This document shows, piece after piece, positions 36,718 through 48,599 of a stretch of DNA of 64,000 bases. The position numbers and the translations under genes were made by a program. The DNA is taken from the NCBI RefSeq assembly GCF_011009015.1, contig NZ_CP048878.1, positions 2,021,001-2,085,000 on the forward strand. The letters are read 5' to 3'. Source of the stretch: Spartinivicinus ruber (lineage in GTDB: Bacteria; Pseudomonadota; Gammaproteobacteria; Pseudomonadales; Zooshikellaceae). Numbering within the stretch: position 1 is the stretch's first letter; every line of letters begins with the position of its first letter. A model generated the notes under the pieces. It ran no database searches, had not been told where the DNA came from, and worked only from the letters and a program-made list of their open reading frames with translations.

Positions 36718-38598
36718 CTACATATAAAGAGATAGAGTGCGTTTGGCATTATATAGGATAATTTTCCAATTATTTTTGGCTTCTGGAATTTGGATGGCAG
36801 GTGTATTTAAATTATTAAAGTTAGCACTATAAGGCACTTCATTTTCTGCAATAAAGTTTAGTCGTTCTCTGTTTGCATCATATTGATGAACCATAAAGTC
36901 AATTACTTCATTAGTCAGTGGTACTCGATAAAAGCGAATCAGGTTTTGCGCCAGGCGCTCAGCAGCGGCTGATAAATTACTTTCTACATCTTCTGCCAGT
37001 GCTTTTGCCTCAGTGGCTCGTTCTTGTACGCTGGCATCAGGCTCCAAGGCATCTATTAACATGGCATGGGAACTGTAAATAGCACGCTGAATTTTGGGTG
37101 AATGTAATTTGGTAAATCTATCTAGCATGATGGTCAATTCTACTGCTAGCTCTTTCGCTTTTAATAAAGGTAGCTGGCTAGCCCCAGCATTGTGCTTGGG
37201 TGTTTGATTGAGCACATGATTGGTTTCCTTAAGTAACAAGTTAAGGGTTTTTGCCAATGCTGCTTTTTCATCGGTATCTAACTTTATCGATTGCTCAGTA
37301 AATATAATATTGCGTTTCAAGCCACCTGCGTTAGTTAACATTTGTTGTTTTTTCTGCGTTATGTGTTGCCAGCGTTGTAATGCCCGACGAAAATGGACTA
37401 AGTCTCGGCCCAGTTTTAAATAGGCTTTACGAGCTTGTTCATAGAGTTCTAAGGCAGACTCGAATTGTTGGGTTCGCTCTTGTAAGTTCAGCGTGTATTT
37501 GATGTGGCGATCTGTCAGCTGTCGATTGTCATTTACTTCTTTGGCTAATTGTTCAATACCATTAATGGCTGAAGACAGTAACGCCTGAGCTGTTAGCCCT
37601 TCATCGGCATGAATATCTTCATTAACATCACATAAACTTAAATAGCTGGTTAAGGCTTTCAGGCGACTAAGGACTTTGGCCCGACTAATCCGGTAATCAT
37701 TTCGCTCTTCTTCCAGTCGTGTAATGGCCTTTGCAATGTCTTGGGTGCCCTGATATTCAATTTTCAGATAGCTAATTTCTCGGTCACACAATAGCTCTAA
37801 TGTTAAGGTGAATAACTCTTCGGTATCGGCCAGTGTCATTAACTCGTAATTATCTTGCTCAATAGCGGATAATATTCTTTCAATAAATAGCGGCGAGCGT
37901 TGTCGGCCATGCTGAGGACTTGGTGCAATGCCTCTCAGTCGCTCAGAGAGCTGGTCAGCCAGTTGTGGATAATTTGCCCGTAGTTTTTCGTTGGCTTCAT
38001 TAGCCTGAGCCTCAATTTGGTGAATGAGATCAATCATCCGTGAAGGTAGGCCAGCCTGACGAAGTACTTCAATTCGCTTTGCCTGTAAAGCCAACTCATG
38101 GTCTTCAGTTAATTCATAAACAGCAACTTCAATACCTTCTGCACCTAAGTTTGCCTGTTGTAGCAAATAGCTTGCTGCTTGGTATTTTCTAGCTTCTTCT
38201 GTAAGACTGGCTAATGACAAGTCCCTTACTTTCCAGACCAAAGGAGGTAGTGAGGCGATTGCCTGCCTGATGGTTTTTTGTTGCTGTTTAAGCTTACTGC
38301 CAGTGGTCAGGTGATACAGGTATTTAGATAAAATACCCAATATACCAGCTACCACTGAGTAGCCTACAAAGTAGATACCTTTATCAATAGGCATCCAAGC
38401 CCCATAGCCCGCATAATAACCTGCTAAGGCTGCTAGATAAGTCACAGGGCCTGCAGTCCAGGCAAAGCTGACCATAGTGATACCCCAGGGCTCATCCTGG
38501 GCTTTAATATGTAGCTGCTCTAGCCAGTGACGGGGACGGTTGGTTAGCTGAACAGTGCTACTGTGACCATTTTTGGGAGAGTCTTTACGCTGCCACAT
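36718..38598 (-). CDS. Large coiled-coil membrane protein, unknown
   Basis: 626 residues, no family recognised. Two membrane segments near the N terminus (FAWTAGPVTYLAALAGYYAGYG and GIYFVGYSVVAGILGILSKYLY, residues about 45-95) are followed by some 500 helical residues rich in Glu, Lys, Leu and Gln. These probably form long coiled coils in the cytoplasm (LEEERNDYRISRAKVLSRLK, QERATEAKALAEDVESNL). There are no nucleotide-binding or protease motifs. It stands alone, between sanA and an intergenic MITE. Architecture suggests a scaffold or partner of an envelope system (inference only). No damage seen. Confidence 0.75.
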   Translation of the reverse strand: MWQRKDSPKNGHSSTVQLTNRPRHWLEQLHIKAQDEPWGITMVSFAWTAGPVTYLAALAGYYAGYGAWMPIDKGIYFVGYSVVAGILGILSKYLYHLTTGSKLKQQQKTIRQAIASLPPLVWKVRDLSLASLTEEARKYQAASYLLQQANLGAEGIEVAVYELTEDHELALQAKRIEVLRQAGLPSRMIDLIHQIEAQANEANEKLRANYPQLADQLSERLRGIAPSPQHGRQRSPLFIERILSAIEQDNYELMTLADTEELFTLTLELLCDREISYLKIEYQGTQDIAKAITRLEEERNDYRISRAKVLSRLKALTSYLSLCDVNEDIHADEGLTAQALLSSAINGIEQLAKEVNDNRQLTDRHIKYTLNLQERTQQFESALELYEQARKAYLKLGRDLVHFRRALQRWQHITQKKQQMLTNAGGLKRNIIFTEQSIKLDTDEKAALAKTLNLLLKETNHVLNQTPKHNAGASQLPLLKAKELAVELTIMLDRFTKLHSPKIQRAIYSSHAMLIDALEPDASVQERATEAKALAEDVESNLSAAAERLAQNLIRFYRVPLTNEVIDFMVHQYDANRERLNFIAENEVPYSANFNNLNTPAIQIPEAKNNWKIILYNAKRTLSLYM

Positions 38599-38806: not shown

Positions 38807-38945
38807 GAGGGTGTCGCAAAACTACTGCGCTTGCAAATACTGCGTTAAAAATCGACTCAAAATGCTCATTTATTAAGTATAAACTCCGCTTTTTCGCTGA
38901 TTTTTGCCTTGTCTTTACTTCGCTCATAACTTTTTACGACACCCT
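38807..38945. mobile_element. MITE-like element, 139 bp, with 15-bp terminal inverted repeats
   Basis: GAGGGTGTCGCAAAA at 38807 pairs with TTTTACGACACCCTC ending at 38945, one mismatch in 15. The interior has no open frame of note. Outside the ends are CCTG on the left and TGTG on the right, with no clear target duplication. It lies in the 494-bp gap between the 626-residue protein and the LEA-type lipoprotein. The remainder of the gap shows nothing identifiable. Confidence 0.75.
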
Positions 38946-39092
38946 CTGTGGAGGGGTGGGTTTGCTGGCCGCTAGTCTATGAAATTATTTGAGTTTAAAT
39001 ATTAGTAAAGCTACCTATTTTAGCTCGACTTTCCGCAGCCAAATTATTGGTAAGCTTTTCTCATGTTTATGAGCTTTTGTGGTGCTCACTTT

Positions 39093-39581
39093 TTAATGGT
39101 TGAGTTGAATCTGCCCAGTTTCAACAACAGTAGTAGAGCTGAACAGATGAGTCCCCTGCATTTTAGCTTTTAATTCGTAGTTAAGCTGCTTTTTAGGTTG
39201 TTGTAACACATCATTTAGAAAGCGAATGCTGTTAATCAAGTTAGTTGAGGTTTCTACAGTAAAGTCGGTGCTACTAAAGCCTGCAACACCTGGGATTTTA
39301 TTGGTAACACCAGAAATTACTTCATAACCTTCCAGGCTAATACTATAGAACATACCTCTGAGTTGTAAGGAGGTGCTGTTGGGGTTAATCAAGCGTAATC
39401 CAACAGCAAAGTTTTGAGTGAATCCTTCAGGTTCTAGCACTTGTATAGAAGTAATATGGATTTTGGGCTTTTCATAGTTTGGGGTGAAACTGGCACAACC
39501 TACTAACCATAATAACAGAGCAGTGATAACAGCAAAGCGGAAGCACTGAAAGAAACGATCAAAAACGAATCGACTCAACAT
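39093..39581 (-). CDS. LEA-type-2 (WHy domain) lipoprotein
   Basis: 162 residues. A signal ends in LLLWLVGC, with lipidated Cys near residue 29. The mature domain has LRLINPNSTSLQLRGMFYSISLEG, the water-stress/hypersensitive-response (LEA14-like) fold pattern found in bacterial desiccation-related lipoproteins. It is the last gene of a minus-strand run that starts with the retropepsin-like gene, 50 bp after the DUF2959 gene. Probable periplasmic face or outer-membrane location. The role in these operons is unknown. Confidence 0.82.
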   Translation of the reverse strand: MLSRFVFDRFFQCFRFAVITALLLWLVGCASFTPNYEKPKIHITSIQVLEPEGFTQNFAVGLRLINPNSTSLQLRGMFYSISLEGYEVISGVTNKIPGVAGFSSTDFTVETSTNLINSIRFLNDVLQQPKKQLNYELKAKMQGTHLFSSTTVVETGQIQLNH

Positions 39582-39631
39582 GAAAAACCTCTGTCTTGGT
39601 GAAGAAGCAAAAGTTAAGGAAAGGGTGACGC

Positions 39632-40294
39632 TTACTGGCTACGCCGCATTTGCTGGATAAATGCTTGAGATTCTCTAATTGCTTGCTGCATTGATTTTAG
39701 TAAACGATCTACATCTTTCTGAACTGTTTTTAGTTCACCGCGTAATGCTGCAATTGCGCGGGCATTCAGATTATGCTTTAAATACAACACTTGGTCATGC
39801 AATGTGGTGAGCACGGGAGCAATGGTTTTTTCAGCTCGCCACATAGATGCAATCAACTTTTCATACTGTTGCTTAGTATCCTGAAGTTTGCGAGCGCTAT
39901 CTCTTTTCAGTGTGTTATTGGAGAAGAGCGATAATTCTTCTTCCCACTCTTCAAATAGTGCTTCTGCCACATCTTCTACTTTTTCAATATGACTACGTAA
40001 GTTTTCTGCTGTGGCTTTACTCTCTTCATATTCAGTATTGAGTTGGTCATAGGTCTCTTGTAGGTTACCGCCATCAAACTGAACCACAGCTTTAAACTGT
40101 TCTAAAGCATCCTTAAACTGCTGTTGAGTTTCTTGCTGAGCTTTTTGGGTATCCTCGACACGATTAATTAAAATATCTCGCTTGTGGTAGCCCAGTTTTT
40201 CCATTGATGCGTAGTAGGCTGTTTGGCAGCCAGATATAAGGCCAAGTGTTAGTAGCAGAAGAAAGCGTGGACGGATTGGGAACAAATGTTTCAT
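39632..40294 (-). CDS. DUF2959 coiled-coil lipoprotein
   Basis: 220 residues. The signal ends LTLGLISGC (lipid Cys23 or so), and the mature part is almost entirely coiled coil: SMEKLGYHKRDILINRVEDT at its start and LNARAIAALRGELKTVQKDV near the end, as in DUF2959. The protein would form an extended helical structure in the periplasm. It is placed 114 bp after the peptidase-like gene and 50 bp before the LEA-type lipoprotein gene, all on the minus strand. No function is established. Confidence 0.85.
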   Translation of the reverse strand: MKHLFPIRPRFLLLLTLGLISGCQTAYYASMEKLGYHKRDILINRVEDTQKAQQETQQQFKDALEQFKAVVQFDGGNLQETYDQLNTEYEESKATAENLRSHIEKVEDVAEALFEEWEEELSLFSNNTLKRDSARKLQDTKQQYEKLIASMWRAEKTIAPVLTTLHDQVLYLKHNLNARAIAALRGELKTVQKDVDRLLKSMQQAIRESQAFIQQMRRSQ

Positions 40295-40408
40295 TGTAGC
40301 CTCATTGCAAACGGGATGTACGATCTTGCATTATGGCTGAACTAATTCAGTAAAGCCAACCACGACAGTAGTTGGCATTCTTTCAATAATGGAAGTAGGT
40401 AGGGCTTT

Positions 40409-41641
40409 TTAATGAATATTTTGTAAAGACTTCAGCGGACCTCCAACTAGTTTTTCTGCCATTTTTTGAGTTGCTTTTAAGGTGATAGGGACATCTGGTT
40501 TAGCAAGCCCCCTAATGATATTGTCTAAACTGGCTTTGTTATTGGTTCTTTGCTGAATTTCTTGATCAACTTTATAGAGAATACCAACGGCTTTCGCTGT
40601 GATAGGGCCATAAGAGCGATCTACTTTTAACTTGGATATTTTTTTTCCTCTGTTAATCTGCTGGCTAATAGATTTATCAAATCGCTCCTGGGTAATCGTG
40701 CCAGACCGGCGCATAATTTCTAGTGAGTAATATTCTGCAAGCCCTTCAACTAGCCAGTCGGCACCAGGTTCTGCGCGGGCTGACATTGCTACATGTATTA
40801 GCTCATGAATTGGAGGGCTAGTACCGTCTTCAGTAATTAAAGGTCTATCTGCATGAAGAAATAGAGAGCTGGGACCTGAAAGAGCACCTCGCCACATAGG
40901 GTCATTGGCACTAACAATATTGATGCGCTTAGGAAAGTGAGGAAAAATATCTAGAAAAACAGGTAAATTCCAGTTCAGCATGGCTAGAATATCCAAGCGG
41001 CGAGCGGACTGATTTTTGGGGGCTGCGACAGCCACTTTAACTCCTTTAATTGTTTCTCGCTTGACTCCAATATCACCTGCCACGATCCATCCCTTAGGTC
41101 GATCAAAAGAAGTTTCGGGATGGTCAACCTTGTAAGCGCCACTGGTATAACGAATATAAGGGGTAGCTATTGACCAGCCTTTTGGTAACTGAAAGTGTAA
41201 TTTTGCTTTGGACTGGGTGCCATCTTGCATATCGACTCGAAGCTGTGGAATGACATCAAACCCTCTGAACAGTGCCCAGTCATCTGTGATGATTGAGTCA
41301 AAGCGGCCTGACTTGCGGTGGTGGTTCATTTTTGCTGTAAACGATAAAGTACCTGATTTGCCATTAGGCTGCCAAAGGATGTAGTCATCCTGCTTCACCA
41401 GTTGGCCTGACCCTTTAAAGTTTGTATAGCGTTCTGGATTTGTTTTCACCTGAATCGAGCGCACATACTGAGCGTTTTTACGGAGTTTAATGGCTACTTG
41501 AGCTGTCTTGGCTGTTGGTTCTAGTTTGACTTCGTAATCAATGTAATAAAAAGGTTTGTCAGCTGCTGAGGCAGTTAACCCCCAACAGCAAAGTGCAATA
41601 CTCAGGATGATGTTATGAGTTGCTGATAAGAAAGGTTTCAT
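40409..41641 (-). CDS. Secreted HExxH metallopeptidase-like protein
   Basis: 410 residues from ATG 41641. A signal peptide (PFLSATHNIILSIALCCWGLTASA) leads into a beta-rich region (about 30-250). A gluzincin-like active site follows: His279-Glu-Leu-Ile-His283 in PPIHELIHVAMSA, with EGLAEYYSLEI about 22 residues later offering the third zinc ligand. This resembles M61/M1-type peptidases. Four bp separate it from the ATP-grasp gene, so it is in the same operon. It may act on periplasmic peptide or on the product of the operon's ligase (inference). A TTG at 41662 is less likely as start. Confidence 0.75.
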   Translation of the reverse strand: MKPFLSATHNIILSIALCCWGLTASAADKPFYYIDYEVKLEPTAKTAQVAIKLRKNAQYVRSIQVKTNPERYTNFKGSGQLVKQDDYILWQPNGKSGTLSFTAKMNHHRKSGRFDSIITDDWALFRGFDVIPQLRVDMQDGTQSKAKLHFQLPKGWSIATPYIRYTSGAYKVDHPETSFDRPKGWIVAGDIGVKRETIKGVKVAVAAPKNQSARRLDILAMLNWNLPVFLDIFPHFPKRINIVSANDPMWRGALSGPSSLFLHADRPLITEDGTSPPIHELIHVAMSARAEPGADWLVEGLAEYYSLEIMRRSGTITQERFDKSISQQINRGKKISKLKVDRSYGPITAKAVGILYKVDQEIQQRTNNKASLDNIIRGLAKPDVPITLKATQKMAEKLVGGPLKSLQNIH

Positions 41642-41665
41642 AGTAGTTAATTTTTCAGGCAAGGT

Positions 41666-42613
41666 TTAAACAATACCAAATTGTTGCTGTGAATACTGAA
41701 CCCGTTGGTCAACCGAAAAGCCATGTTTTTTCATGGTTTCGATGTGCGTTAACCTAGGCTCTAAGCCTGTGTTATTGGCGACCTGAATGGCAAGCCCTGG
41801 TCGGGCATTAAGCTCTAGTAACAGAGGCCCTAGCTTCTGATCCAGAACAATATCAGCGCCAAGATAGCCAAGCCGCGTCATATCATAGCAAGAGGAGGCT
41901 AACGTTAGGATTTTCTCCCAGTGTGGAACTTGTAACGTTTCGAAGTGACTTCCTGTATCTGGGTGCTCATCAACCGGGCGGTTACTTTGTACAGCACATA
42001 AGGCTTTACCATTAGCTAGATTTAGCCCAACACCAACAGCACCTTGGTGTAAGTTGGCTTTGCCATCAGAAGCATGGGTTGATAAGCGGAGCATAGCCAT
42101 GACTGGAAAGCCCTTAAAGACAATTACCCGAATATCGGGTACTCCTTCATAGCTGTATCGATCAAACACTGGGTCAAACTGAACGAGAGCTTCAATCATT
42201 GCTACATCGGGCTTGCCACCTAAACTGTGCAAACCACTTAGAATGTTCGATGCATGCCGCATTATATCAGATAAACTAAGCGCTTCGCCGCTTGGCTTAA
42301 AAAAGCCTTCAGAGGTTCGCTCAGTGATAACCAAAATCCCTTTTCCACCACTGCCTTGAGCTGGTTTGATGACAAAGCCATCATATTGGTTGACTAAGTC
42401 TGCCAGCTTTTTGATTTGATGCTGATATTCAATAACATGCAACAGTTTTGGGGTCGATACTTTAGCTTTTTCGGCAACTAGCTTGGTTTTTAGCTTGTTA
42501 TCAACCAGTGGATATAAGCTACGCTGGTTGTATTTAGCAATATACGACACATTACGCTTGTTCATGCCGAGTATGCCTTTTTGCTTAAGCTTACAGGGTG
42601 TAGCAAAAAACAT
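41666..42613 (-). CDS. RimK-like ATP-grasp ligase (alpha-L-glutamate ligase homologue)
   Basis: 315 residues. ATP-grasp features are visible: LVAEKAKVSTPKLLHV, FVIKPAQGSGGKGILVI (ATP-binding loop and Lys), DIRVIVFKGFPVMAMLRLST, LGADIVLDQKLGPLLLELNARPGLAIQ (magnesium ligands E and N). This is the RimK-related family usually found beside inactive-transglutaminase membrane proteins. It would join an amino acid to an acceptor carboxylate with ATP. It lies 5 bp after the transglutaminase-like gene and 3 bp before the peptidase-like gene, so it is tightly co-transcribed. The acceptor substrate is unknown. Confidence 0.88.
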   Translation of the reverse strand: MFFATPCKLKQKGILGMNKRNVSYIAKYNQRSLYPLVDNKLKTKLVAEKAKVSTPKLLHVIEYQHQIKKLADLVNQYDGFVIKPAQGSGGKGILVITERTSEGFFKPSGEALSLSDIMRHASNILSGLHSLGGKPDVAMIEALVQFDPVFDRYSYEGVPDIRVIVFKGFPVMAMLRLSTHASDGKANLHQGAVGVGLNLANGKALCAVQSNRPVDEHPDTGSHFETLQVPHWEKILTLASSCYDMTRLGYLGADIVLDQKLGPLLLELNARPGLAIQVANNTGLEPRLTHIETMKKHGFSVDQRVQYSQQQFGIV

Positions 42614-42618
42614 GGTAA

Positions 42619-44145
42619 TTAGTCCTCGGCTAACGGTTGAAACCTGCGTAATTCAGTTAGTCGGTAGCCGGTATATTGGCCTAACAAGATAATGCAGCCT
42701 AATAACGCTAGTAATAACTCAGGGAAATTAAACGTTAAGTGCTCAACATACTGGTTAGTCATAAGTAAGTAGGCCAGTGTTGCTACTAGTAAGCTGCCAC
42801 CTCCTTGGGTAAAGACTTCTTTGGGGCCTTCTTCCTCCCATAAAATGGACATTCTTTCGATGGTCCAGGCTAGAATGATCATTGGGAAGAAGGTAACAGA
42901 CAAGGCTTCACTAATTCCCAGCTTATGACTTAGGATGCTCATCCCAGCCATAATGCTGATGACAACAATGACCACGGCTGATATTCGTGCCACTAGGAGG
43001 AGATTGAGACGACTTAAATAGGACCGGATAAATAAGCCAATACTGACAATCACTAGAAAAATAATCAGGCCAGTAATTAGTGTGGTTTCAATGAAGGCGA
43101 TGGCAATCAAAATTGGCATGAATGTGCCTGAAGTTTTGACTCCCACTAAAATACGCATCAGTACCACGACGATAGCGCCAATTGGTACCAATAAAATGGA
43201 TTTAAAGACATTTTGCTGCTCAATAGGCAAACTATAGATGGAGAAGTCAACCAGTGCTGCTTGGTTTTCTGCGCCATGTAAAATAGCAAAAGACTTGGCA
43301 GGTTGAGAATTCTTAATAATTGAAAATGATGCTTTAGAGCTTTCCCCTCCTTCTACATCAAGCAGTGAGCTGCCACCTCGTTGCCAAAGTAAAAAGTTAC
43401 CAGGTAAGCCTTTTTGGCCTGTTTTGGGGTTAAAGAAAACCCAGTGGTCAGTATCAAAAATTTCAATCAAAGTGGTGAGTTTTTGGTTACGACGACCATC
43501 TTCTAATTGTAAACCTCTGGCAACCCTTGCTGGTATTTTGGCAAGCGCTAATGCATTAAGTGCAAGGCGGGTTTTGCTCAAGCCTTGGTTACCTAACAAG
43601 AGCTGAATATCTTCAATTGGCTCTTTATCATTGATTAGGCGAATCAGCTCAGTAGCAAAAGTCGTATTATCAGCAGAGCGGTTGTATACATAAGTAACGA
43701 GCTGGCTGATAGTAGTTTTTAGGCTAGGAGACAAATCTGGAGTTTTGGTTTCAACTGGCGGAATAGCGTTTTGCTCGTGAGCAGGTGCATCAGACTGTTT
43801 GAAAACCTGTACTTTGTAAAATAAAACTTGCTTGCCGTTGGCTTTGCGCCTGGCCCACTGAGCTCGACGCTCTTGTTGATTGCTGTCCCAGCCAAAGCCA
43901 TAGCCTGATGCCGTAAAGTCCTCATCTAAAATGCCCATTTCTGGCGGGTTGTGGGGTAGGGCAAAGGAAACAGTAACAGGCTTATCGGTTGCTTTAAATT
44001 CAATTTTGGCTTCGACTGTCCATATTGCTTTGCGCTCACCAGGCAATAAAGGGAACTCCAGTTCAGAGTTCTTATAAATGGTGAGGCCAATGCCAATAAA
44101 AATGAAAATGAATGATAGTAAGTAAACTTGTGCTCTGGACGACAT
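42619..44145 (-). CDS. Inactive-transglutaminase / 7-TM membrane protein
   Basis: 508 residues. An N-terminal membrane helix (VYLLSFIFIFIGIGLTIY) precedes a periplasmic region that includes a transglutaminase-like fold (about 150-260: LGNQGLSKTRLALNALALAKIPARVARGL). The usual Cys of GxCxxxA and the catalytic His are missing, hence 'inactive'. The C-terminal half has about seven membrane segments (SILLVPIGAIVVVLMRILVG onward), ending near RRFQPL. This layout belongs to the family found with RimK-like ligases and retropepsin-like proteins. The start shares one base with the upstream stop, so it is translationally coupled. Confidence 0.88.
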   Translation of the reverse strand: MSSRAQVYLLSFIFIFIGIGLTIYKNSELEFPLLPGERKAIWTVEAKIEFKATDKPVTVSFALPHNPPEMGILDEDFTASGYGFGWDSNQQERRAQWARRKANGKQVLFYKVQVFKQSDAPAHEQNAIPPVETKTPDLSPSLKTTISQLVTYVYNRSADNTTFATELIRLINDKEPIEDIQLLLGNQGLSKTRLALNALALAKIPARVARGLQLEDGRRNQKLTTLIEIFDTDHWVFFNPKTGQKGLPGNFLLWQRGGSSLLDVEGGESSKASFSIIKNSQPAKSFAILHGAENQAALVDFSIYSLPIEQQNVFKSILLVPIGAIVVVLMRILVGVKTSGTFMPILIAIAFIETTLITGLIIFLVIVSIGLFIRSYLSRLNLLLVARISAVVIVVISIMAGMSILSHKLGISEALSVTFFPMIILAWTIERMSILWEEEGPKEVFTQGGGSLLVATLAYLLMTNQYVEHLTFNFPELLLALLGCIILLGQYTGYRLTELRRFQPLAED

Positions 44146-44879
44146 TATTGCTGCTCATCTACTGCCAAATTAGGCGTTTTTTCTGGGGTAGGAACTTTTT
44201 GGGTAAATTGCTTGCTCACATCAACAACGGCTATGTCTTTTAGGAAGTTACGACCTATTAGCACGGGGTATTCGTAGTCGTTACGATCAGTCAAGCCGAA
44301 TGAAATGCGTTGCTCTATTGGGCCCAAGCGCACATTCATTTTAATAATGTAGCGTTTTTGTCCATCAATAGTTGTCAGTTTAGCTTTGACCTTTTTGACT
44401 ACTTGGCGACTAAGCTCGGTTACTTCTTCAGACTCTGGGTCTTTCATTTTGAATTTAACCCACTTCTTGCCATCCCGTTCAAACGGGGTGATATCAAAGA
44501 CAAATAATGTGGAGGTCAATATTCCTGTATCAATCCGGGCAGTATAAGTAACACCTGGAGGGGTGAGGGTAACTTTTTCTAACTCACCGATAGCTGGCTT
44601 TTGATCACTGGCTTCTTTCTCTTCTGCCTCTTCTGCTTTTGTCGCTTGCTTATCTGACTGTTTGGTCTGTGGACAATAGACAATAGTTTGTACTTTAGTC
44701 TTTGCTTGTTTATCAGTAGGCTTGGCTTGTTTAGCTGTTTGCTCAGGTGTAGGGGCAGTACAGTTTTCAATAGTGGTTACTACGGGCTGAATGGCCTGTT
44801 CAGAACCTTCCTTGCCAAAGCTGACTGAATTGATGCTCCAAATAACTGAAATCAATACCAGACACTGCAAATATTTCAT
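44145..44879 (-). CDS. Retropepsin-like 'ATP-dependent zinc protease' family protein
   Basis: 244 residues. A signal peptide (MKYLQCLVLISVIWSINSVSFG) and a Lys/Gln/Glu-rich linker (about 40-95) precede a retropepsin-like domain: TARIDTGILTSTLFVFDI, with the Asp-Thr-Gly active-site triplet, and YPVLIGRNFLKDIAVVDV. The family is annotated as an ATP-dependent zinc protease (DUF785), but the fold is aspartic-protease-like. It is the first gene of the operon. It is preceded by a 919-bp gene-free region with its promoter. Its location in the periplasm matches the soluble loops of the membrane partner. Confidence 0.85.
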   Translation of the reverse strand: MKYLQCLVLISVIWSINSVSFGKEGSEQAIQPVVTTIENCTAPTPEQTAKQAKPTDKQAKTKVQTIVYCPQTKQSDKQATKAEEAEEKEASDQKPAIGELEKVTLTPPGVTYTARIDTGILTSTLFVFDITPFERDGKKWVKFKMKDPESEEVTELSRQVVKKVKAKLTTIDGQKRYIIKMNVRLGPIEQRISFGLTDRNDYEYPVLIGRNFLKDIAVVDVSKQFTQKVPTPEKTPNLAVDEQQ

Positions 44880-47255: not shown

Positions 47256-48599
47256 TCACACATTGTCCTTATATAGAGTTGCTGCATGGTGTATCACTTT
47301 TGCTGTTACTTCATTTATCACTATTTCTGGACGTTGTAGCTTTATCATGGAAATAGCTGAGTCAGTATTAGTTGCCTGGCCTGTACCCTCCAACCAAGCG
47401 GCTAGAGCTGCTACACTGCGAGAGTAGCCTAATGCACAACAGACCAGTGTTTTTCCTGATTTCAATGCTTTATCTATAGCAGTAATTGCTTGGTATAAAC
47501 TCTCAGCAGTAGGGGGAATTAAGTCTAAGCAAGGAATAGAGTACCATTTTATAGCTGTATTTGAGCGAGAGGATAAAGTCATTTCTGCAGATAAATCTAC
47601 CACTGCTTGAAAGTTATGACTGATGAGAGAAGCATTTGATGGAAAGCGCCCAAGCCAAAGTTGCTCATAAACTTGTACAGGTGCAGGCTGTTTTCGTGTC
47701 CATAGCCGTGAATTAATAAAAGCACCTATTAGATAAGGAAAGAGCAGCCAGCGAGCAGCAAGACTTAATTGGCCATTTGCTTGTTTTTGGAAGCCATCTA
47801 CACCTATGAAAAAATAACAGCTGGCGACTAAAGTTAATGCTGTGCTGACCCATAATAGCCATAAACTAGCACCACCAACAAGTATTGCAACAAGAGTGGG
47901 GAGTAAGGCACCAAGCAAATAATAAGTACCTAGTCGATAGCGTTGTTTTTTATAGGCCCCGTCAGATGATTTGAGGATGCAATGGTTATTGTCAGGCCAT
48001 AACCATACGCAAAACCAACCCAATAAGGCGCCTGTCGGAATATCAATAAAATGATGTTGGAAAGTAGTGAGTACAGAAACAACGACTAAGCTAAACCACA
48101 AATGTAAAGTATAGTGCCAATATTTGTTAGGTAGATGCTTTATATATAGAACCCATAAAATAATAGCAAGAGCAATATGTAATGAAGGTGCTTGGTTGAA
48201 AGGTTTATCAAAACTGGCCAGGGCATCAAACATTAACCCAGGTAAGCCGCTGGTTGTTGGGCGGTCAAAAGTAAAGTGTAATGGAAGCAAAATAAAACAG
48301 CTGACAGCAATGATTTGAGCGGTGACTAGGCGTTTAACATGTATATTAAGTGCCAGAGGGTTTGCACATACAAATAATGAGGCAGCATAAAATAAGTTGA
48401 TTGACCAATATGGAATGATAGTCCACGCCATAAATGGAATGTTGTATTCCCAAGCAAAAACTACCGAGTCCACATTCGTCTGTTGGTTTGCCAGCCAGTT
48501 TGCAAACCCATAAGTTAAATAGAAAAAAGGTCCTAAAAAAGCTAACCATAAACAGGCACTTCCCCACGCCTTGTTGGCTTGGAAGTTAACTTCATTCAT
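47256..48599 (-). CDS. PAP2-like / dual-specificity phosphatase fusion
   Basis: 447 residues. The N-terminal part has several membrane segments and the type 2 acid phosphatase pattern, with PFNQAPSLHIALA and FQHHFIDIPTGALLGW (His residues of the PAP2 signature) between about 130 and 200. The C-terminal domain (about 310-440) is a cytosolic dual-specificity phosphatase with the active-site loop VCCALGYSRSVAA (Cys-x5-Arg) and VDLSAEMTLS upstream. Fusions of this type occur in marine gammaproteobacteria, usually beside phospholipid or lipid-kinase genes; none is next to it here. Probably dephosphorylates a lipid phosphate (inference). Confidence 0.88.
   Translation of the reverse strand: MNEVNFQANKAWGSACLWLAFLGPFFYLTYGFANWLANQQTNVDSVVFAWEYNIPFMAWTIIPYWSINLFYAASLFVCANPLALNIHVKRLVTAQIIAVSCFILLPLHFTFDRPTTSGLPGLMFDALASFDKPFNQAPSLHIALAIILWVLYIKHLPNKYWHYTLHLWFSLVVVSVLTTFQHHFIDIPTGALLGWFCVWLWPDNNHCILKSSDGAYKKQRYRLGTYYLLGALLPTLVAILVGGASLWLLWVSTALTLVASCYFFIGVDGFQKQANGQLSLAARWLLFPYLIGAFINSRLWTRKQPAPVQVYEQLWLGRFPSNASLISHNFQAVVDLSAEMTLSSRSNTAIKWYSIPCLDLIPPTAESLYQAITAIDKALKSGKTLVCCALGYSRSVAALAAWLEGTGQATNTDSAISMIKLQRPEIVINEVTAKVIHHAATLYKDNV

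Follow-up and report, generated by a model that had tools for sequence, protein, structure and literature searches.

The closest described relative of the genes discussed here is the rlo operon, a known envelope-stress operon published in 2025 (Lormand et al., mBio 2025; PMC12239564). The RloA proteases of Pseudomonas aeruginosa carry signal peptides, are dimeric and retropepsin-like, and cut reporters with 8 or 10 glutamate residues in vitro but not those with 6 or fewer (PMC12239564). Rescue fails when Asp48, Arg114 or Arg137 of RloA is replaced by alanine, and Arg114 and Arg137 bind polyglutamate in the published model (PMC12239564). Loss of all three genes (rloA1-3) leaves a mutant that fails on low-salt medium and shows defects of cell shape, of biofilm and towards beta-lactams (PMC12239564). 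Additional loss of rloB or rloC restores growth on low salt fully and corrects the remaining defects partly; RloC is predicted to be cytosolic (PMC12239564). The inactive transglutaminase HM2192 of Shewanella vesiculosa, whose disruption raises extracellular vesicle output, is RloB-type judging by its description, and the passages in PMC12096838 report that gene alone. The RimB-RimK pair, a retropepsin and an S6 glutamate ligase, represents the same two enzyme superfamilies (ligase plus trimming retropepsin) but is cytosolic. A 2009 survey of amidoligases by Iyer and others reportedly discusses such operons. The present analysis concerns an rlo locus of Spartinivicinus ruber (Pseudomonadales; Zooshikellaceae) within a stretch of 64,000 nucleotides (contig NZ_CP048878.1, positions 2,021,001 to 2,085,000), referred to as the window, in which the three rlo genes are followed by genes for a secreted M61-like metallopeptidase and two lipoproteins.

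By its gene set, the core of this locus is the rlo operon. The same three families stand in the same order and on the same strand as in P. aeruginosa (secreted retropepsin, inactive transglutaminase with seven transmembrane helices and cytosolic ATP-grasp ligase), whereas the window has a DTGI active-site loop in RloA and an M61-like peptidase after rloC. A preliminary description of this DNA had called the core poorly understood, which was true until 2025 and no longer is since the rlo paper (PMC12239564). The new part is the peptidase variant in this genus. A term search of the main text of PMC12239564 found no occurrence of M61, HExxH or DUF2959, and no paper linking an M61-like or other metallopeptidase to rlo was found in the open-licence literature. 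By sequence, RloA of the window matches the RloA-type solved structures 9g59, 9g58 and 2pma (E-values 9e-14 to 3e-11). RloB has the inactive transglutaminase domain and seven transmembrane helices; its outer domain is without a cysteine nucleophile, because its sole cysteine lies in a hydrophobic stretch near the C-terminal end. No signal peptide was seen in RloC by eye, the way in which signal peptides and lipoboxes were judged throughout. The window proteins miss the NCBIfam models for RloB (378.6 bits, cut-off 900) and for RloA1, RloA2 and RloA3 (at most 99.8 bits, cut-offs 280, 250 and 210), three of these four models being of type "exception".

We lean towards reading the locus as an rlo operon with an added M61-like secreted zinc peptidase, a second trimming enzyme that would take over from RloA. 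In the cytosol, RloC would use ATP to make a polyglutamyl tag or product, as its family suggests, and RloB would carry or display this product at the outer face of the inner membrane. A secreted peptidase would have to trim the product, as the genetics of P. aeruginosa suggest that the untrimmed form harms the envelope. Where it is present, the M61-like peptidase would do the trimming, and RloA would then be free to lose active-site or polyglutamate-binding residues, or to vanish. The gene content, the nested occurrence of the peptidase and the confinement of RloA decay or loss to peptidase genomes, among those examined, are observations; that the peptidase cuts the same product as RloA is what we infer from them. 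It is the most economical account. P. aeruginosa suffers when every RloA is lost and rloB and rloC stay intact, but no unchanged secreted retropepsin was found in 14 sampled genomes, all of which have the peptidase. An intact secreted retropepsin was found in every examined genome that has canonical rloBC and lacks the peptidase. A stronger version, held tentatively, is that the M61-like zinc metallopeptidase is a second, independent polyglutamate trimmer that displaced the retropepsin about 12 times, often leaving a pseudo-retropepsin behind. To our knowledge, an aspartic-to-metallo replacement in a bacterial glutamyl-tag system would be the first of its kind.

A class sample of 274 genomes holds 7 with a strong orthologue of the peptidase, an order sample of 145 holds 20 and a phylum sample of 299 holds 11, and all of these lie among the genomes with rloB (57, 84 and 48, respectively). 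The class search used a single protein, with E < 1e-60 counted as strong, and the order and phylum searches used a seven-row profile. Pooled, the samples hold 31 different peptidase genomes, and rloB is present in 31 of 31. Hypergeometric probabilities for this nesting, without the window's genome, are 6e-5 (class) and 1e-5 (order), and the value by genus in the order sample is 0.001 with the window's own genus included. The phylum sample adds little independence because 8 of its 11 carriers belong to one family (f3), probably Pseudomonadaceae (an inferred name). In the genomes sampled from it, the peptidase is present in genera g3 and g272 and absent from g288 (three genomes); RloB of this family passes the NCBIfam RloB cut-off in four genomes (1037 to 1071 bits). 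Adjacency of the peptidase gene to rloC is limited to the window's genus and genome G179, which belong to two different families; the other carriers have the gene on a different contig or no less than 34 kb from rlo, so the link with rlo does not depend on neighbourhood. No conserved partner beside the M61-like gene stood out in gene maps of five unlinked loci.

Five weak class matches (G005, G085, G181, G196 and G209; E 9e-4 to 5e-8) were not counted as orthologues. Four of them were aligned and have 18-20% identity to the window's peptidase; rloB is present in G181 and G196 (divergent or cut short) and not in the other three. When the 49 rloB genomes of the class without a strong peptidase were searched again with the seven-row profile, only partial weak matches in G196 (8e-6) and G010 (6e-4) appeared. 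Another HExxH gene as a regular follower of rloC was also rejected: in the 1.5 kb that follow rloC in the fetched loci, the M61-like gene is the sole recurrent one on the same strand (L004, L015, L081 and L082), and the three other HExxH matches are mutually unlike.

The state of RloA was compared across 121 fetched rlo loci, which cover 56 of 58 places in the class and, in the order, the peptidase carriers plus 46 of the 64 genomes that have rloB but not the peptidase. Left unfetched were the other 18 of these 64, some second rloB copies there, the class hits G196 and G077, and genomes unique to the phylum sample, of which 6 carry the peptidase. Only the 107 loci with RloA beside rloB (same strand, within 600 bp [base pairs]) were scored. 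The 14 left out comprise 4 with the peptidase (G167, G120, G317 and the second locus of G276) and 10 without it, namely 8 of a divergent RloB subfamily, one of which (G132) has RloA next to rloB on the opposite strand, together with G313 and G352. Six positions in P. aeruginosa numbering (D48, T/S49, G50, A51, R114 and R137), located by counting from the published numbers, were scored. RloA departs from them in 11 of 22 peptidase-positive loci and 0 of 85 negative ones (Fisher 2e-9), a figure inflated by the fact that the positions were fixed after the alignment had been seen. By genus the departures are 8/15 versus 0/71 and by family 7/12 versus 0/55, a family with both peptidase states entering both counts. 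Restricted to D48, R114 and R137, the residues whose mutation by others failed to rescue (PMC12239564), the contrast is 6/22 versus 0/85 (p 4e-5), or 5/15 versus 0/71 genera (p 9e-5); with serine and threonine allowed at A51, 9 of 22 still depart (p 1e-7).

The changes are diverse: DTGI in the window and G327; DTGL with R114A in the congeners G306 and G370; DPGV with R114 and R137 lost in G179; DTGT in G384 and G281; DTGS with R137D in G276; DTGR in G321; DSGS with R137E in G288; and DTAA with R114A in G347. Three further carriers (G167, G120 and G317) have no RloA beside rloB. In the window, DTGI replaces the usual D(T/S)GA, with the D, T and G of the loop, R114 and R137 kept; K46 is arginine, as in many intact RloA proteins.

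Common descent does not explain away the confinement of RloA loss to peptidase-positive tips. On a midpoint-rooted FastTree tree of joined RloB and RloC sequences (109 loci out of 121, G313 and G352 set to intact by hand), intact RloA was lost in 12 separate clades, all within the peptidase-positive tips (16 clades). When loss was simulated independently of the peptidase, none of 22,073 conditioned runs was without loss in a negative tip (minimum 3, mean 11.4). The simulated loss was irreversible; its rate of 0.2 per unit length, the smallest of the seven tried, produced 24 lost tips on average, and runs outside the range of 11 to 19 lost tips were discarded. The peptidase might instead belong to the same envelope response with another substrate, RloA decaying from a lower demand for trimming and the co-occurrence reflecting shared ecology. 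This is unlikely in our judgement, even though the peptidase is unlinked to rlo in most carriers, RloA is intact in a good part of them (11 of 25) and the occurrence of the peptidase is nested in that of rloB without being reciprocal. Lower demand should relax RloB and RloC as well, but scores fall for RloA alone: with profiles trained on 41 peptidase-negative class loci, the RloA median in the order is 148 in carriers versus 167 (p 0.002; 19 versus 44 loci), RloB is slightly higher in carriers (p 0.056) and RloC alike (p 0.96). RloA changes in 12 separate events, all of them in genomes with the peptidase, also speak against it. In two sister genera at equal synonymous divergence (dS 1.33 and 1.34), the nonsynonymous divergence (dN) of the RloA domain is 0.141 with the peptidase versus 0.016 without it, RloB and RloC being similar, in what is a single pair with dS near saturation.

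A stand-in of the same chemistry was looked for in the 14 affected genomes, and no other secreted retropepsin was found, some of the assemblies being incomplete (G384 83%). Their further PF05618 genes are RimB-like or RimB-RimK fusions (478 to 532 amino acids, aa), or there are none (G179, G281, G321 and G384); these RimB calls are best matches below the NCBIfam cut-off, in ten proteins scanned. The RimB-like genes adjoin a RimK-like frame in all cases but one, G347, whose RimB-like gene has no RimK-like neighbour and no visible signal peptide. The window's genome itself has a RimB-RimK fusion of 478 aa (L001 493-1929) and a separate RimB-like gene adjoining a RimK-like gene (L002 545-1920). 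The peptidase-negative genomes G313 and G352, which have canonical rloB and no adjacent RloA, carry an RloA with an intact loop elsewhere.

Besides the inflated first figure and the incomplete assemblies, several points weigh against a takeover by the peptidase. Of the scored positions, only A51 (isoleucine) is changed in RloA of the window; this protein is under purifying selection (dN/dS 0.11-0.12 versus G306) and may be active. The change of A51 to threonine alone (G281 and G384) introduces a pepsin-like residue and may be harmless. An intact adjacent RloA is kept in 11 of the 25 peptidase genomes examined, so replacement is not obligatory. In the sister-genus pair, dN of full-length RloA, linker included, is only 0.121 versus 0.089. 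The enzymes of family M61 are known as glycyl aminopeptidases, not polyglutamate endopeptidases. Finally, in four genomes with only divergent RloB (G101, G071, G197 and G181), neither a secreted retropepsin nor a strong peptidase orthologue was found; a trimmer of either kind is thus not universal in the wider family.

The same selection data bear on another alternative, in which RloA is now a non-catalytic partner: the pseudo-retropepsin would bind the polyglutamyl product and present it to the M61-like peptidase, both acting together. The changed RloA is kept as a full open reading frame in 3 of 3 congeners with dN/dS of 0.06-0.12 (0.037 for the RloA domain between G306 and G370), and 11 of the 14 affected genomes retain RloA next to rloB, with D48 kept in all 11. 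As a general account it is nevertheless improbable, since in three peptidase genomes RloA was found neither beside rloB nor elsewhere, and R114 or R137, polyglutamate binders in the published model (PMC12239564), is lost in 6 of 22 loci. For the window, given the departure at A51 only and the purifying selection, a binding role of RloA beside the peptidase is a fair rival to replacement by it.

At L051-L054, divergent rloB-rloC are followed by a protein of 630-670 aa with a hydrophobic N terminus and a secreted-looking protein of 390-410 aa; no retropepsin adjoins these genes, and a large lipoprotein-like gene precedes them in 3 of 4. PF05618 is absent entirely from G071 and G197.

We would class the peptidase as an M61-like gluzincin from a family not yet described, its zinc being predicted from the motif. 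Like family M61 (PF05299, glycyl aminopeptidase), it has HExxH and a downstream glutamate ligand in an EGLAEYY stretch; the third ligand is E299 (410-aa numbering). It differs in the spacing, HExxH-x15-E in the window, in partial profile coverage, PF05299 aligning over 42 of 118 profile positions at a score marginal to the cut-off, and in having no PDZ domain match. Enzymes of family M61 often carry a PDZ domain. The best match of the peptidase by sequence in the PDB is 4fgm (E 0.21). HExxH and the following EG.AE stretch with the glutamate ligand are present in 24 of 24 orthologues, and D302, W303, E306, Arg133, Arg258, Arg273 and Arg327 (417-aa numbering) are at least 95% conserved among them, the sequence from G038 being cut at the N terminus. 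PF05299 is matched at E <= 0.1 by 19 of 22 alignment members, the best value being the window's own (1.7e-4). The peptidase tree keeps most families together, G327 (f187) standing apart, and peptidase distances correlate with those of RloB plus RloC (rho 0.40, pairs not independent). Such a pattern would be expected if descent was mostly vertical, with many losses, or if transfers were old. Two side observations concern single carriers: in G383 an M61-like frame (G383:C312:1276-2415) has one TAA stop in a fragmented assembly, where a sequencing error is possible, and RloA is intact at the scored positions; downstream of the M61-like gene of another contig, a 221-aa protein of membrane type (L080 9282-9947) has a HELSH motif and looks M50-like by eye.

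As can be seen in Table 1, all six open reading frames lie on one strand, and the outer coordinates in the preliminary description are exact.

Table 1. Features of the rlo locus and its surroundings in the window.
Feature	Position	Strand	Evidence
rloA-type secreted retropepsin, 244 aa	44145..44879	-	PF05618 110.8 bits (cut-off 27)
D117 of RloA	44529-44531	-	
rloB-type inner-membrane protein	42619..44145	-	PF14400 172.6, PF14402 371.4 bits (cut-offs 25)
rloC-type ATP-grasp ligase (alpha-L-glutamate ligase-like)	41666..42613	-	TIGR02291 464.6 bits (cut-off 314.2)
M61-like secreted metallopeptidase, 410 aa from ATG	40409..41641	-	HELIH; PF05299 22.4 bits (cut-off 22)
HELIH of peptidase	40793-40807	-	
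DUF2959 lipoprotein	39632..40294	-	PF11172 270.8 bits (cut-off 26.8)
LEA_2 lipoprotein	39093..39581	-	PF03168 47.2 bits (cut-off 25.4)
Dispersed intergenic repeat, about 150 bp, inverted ends	38808-38960		
626-aa open reading frame just downstream of locus	36718-38598		no Pfam match
Protein with PAP2-type phosphatase region and dual-specificity phosphatase domain	47256-48599		PAP2 region below Pfam cut-off

In the order rloA-rloB-rloC, the first two genes overlap by 1 base and the next two are 5 bp apart. The peptidase had been placed 3 bp after rloC, a distance that requires an upstream TTG start at 41662 (417-aa peptidase); the ATG at 41641 gives 24 bp, and in both congeners, whose peptidases start with ATG (MKL...), the gap is 29 bp. 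Likewise, three genes follow the core, not four as once counted. A gap of 114 bp with one weak promoter-like match separates the peptidase gene from the DUF2959 gene, so one transcript over all six genes is only putative; 50 bp separate the DUF2959 gene from the LEA gene. A scan of the locus gave 11 promoter-like sites versus 15.1 in shuffled sequence and 9 terminator-like sites versus 7.2. The six-gene order is conserved in 3 of 3 genomes of the genus (G000, G306 and G370) and in 0 of 118 other rlo loci, some of which end near rloC; in the sister genus (G341 and G398) neither genome has it, and rloABC was found alone.

Both lipoproteins have a lipobox-like cysteine after a hydrophobic N terminus. 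Among the 274 class genomes, DUF2959 occurs in 35, rloB in 57 and both in 9, and the two genes are neighbours only in the window's genome. DUF2959 was therefore rejected as a part of the system, rloB being present in 9 of 35 DUF2959 genomes versus 57 of 274 overall; as far as sampled, it is a companion in the window's genus only. No match to the window's LEA protein was found in 10 DUF2959 neighbourhoods of other genomes. The LEA lipoprotein stands near rlo in the window's genus; in addition, two genomes of one other family, f173 (G274 and G316), carry a relative at a distance of 3.3-3.5 kb from rloC on its downstream side. There it comes after a PPK2 gene and a second gene that Pfam identifies in G274 as 7TMR-DISM/GGDEF. 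The loci L121 159-5094 and L135 1-4715 of that family have, after rloABC and on the same strand, genes for a protein of 752 aa (7TMR-DISM/GGDEF in L121), for a kinase of PPK2 type and for a LEA_2 lipoprotein related to that of the window. These data, together with the 114-bp gap, suit the idea of an ordinary rlo operon with unrelated downstream genes, the six-gene row being a chance neighbourhood. Neither lipoprotein is generally linked to rlo, and the idea holds well for DUF2959 and less for LEA; it is disfavoured for the peptidase, which is nested in 31 of 31 genomes and adjacent in two families, and for the locus as a whole we consider it very unlikely.

The reading of the six genes as a periplasmic amino-acid tagging and trimming system is thus partly supported. 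Ligation plus trimming fits the cleavage of glutamate runs by RloA and the suppression by rloB or rloC loss in PMC12239564, and the co-occurrence with rloB and the decay of RloA support the peptidase as a working part. The two lipoproteins do not stand as parts, and it is unlikely that the tagging itself is periplasmic, given an RloC without a visible signal peptide that is predicted to be cytosolic in PMC12239564.

Just beyond the LEA gene lies a dispersed intergenic repeat, which starts near GGGTGTCG and ends near CGACACCC; it has 17 matches in the window's genome (itself included), 13 of them at E < 1e-24.

In Pseudomonas, the rlo pathway controls tolerance of low salt, sensitivity to beta-lactams and biofilm (PMC12239564). 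If the M61-like peptidase stands in for RloA, the product must suit both enzymes, which would narrow the candidates. The peptidase would then offer a second enzyme of different chemistry with which to trap the rlo product, and a handle on the natural substrate. It would also explain how some lineages have lost a protease whose joint loss harms P. aeruginosa.

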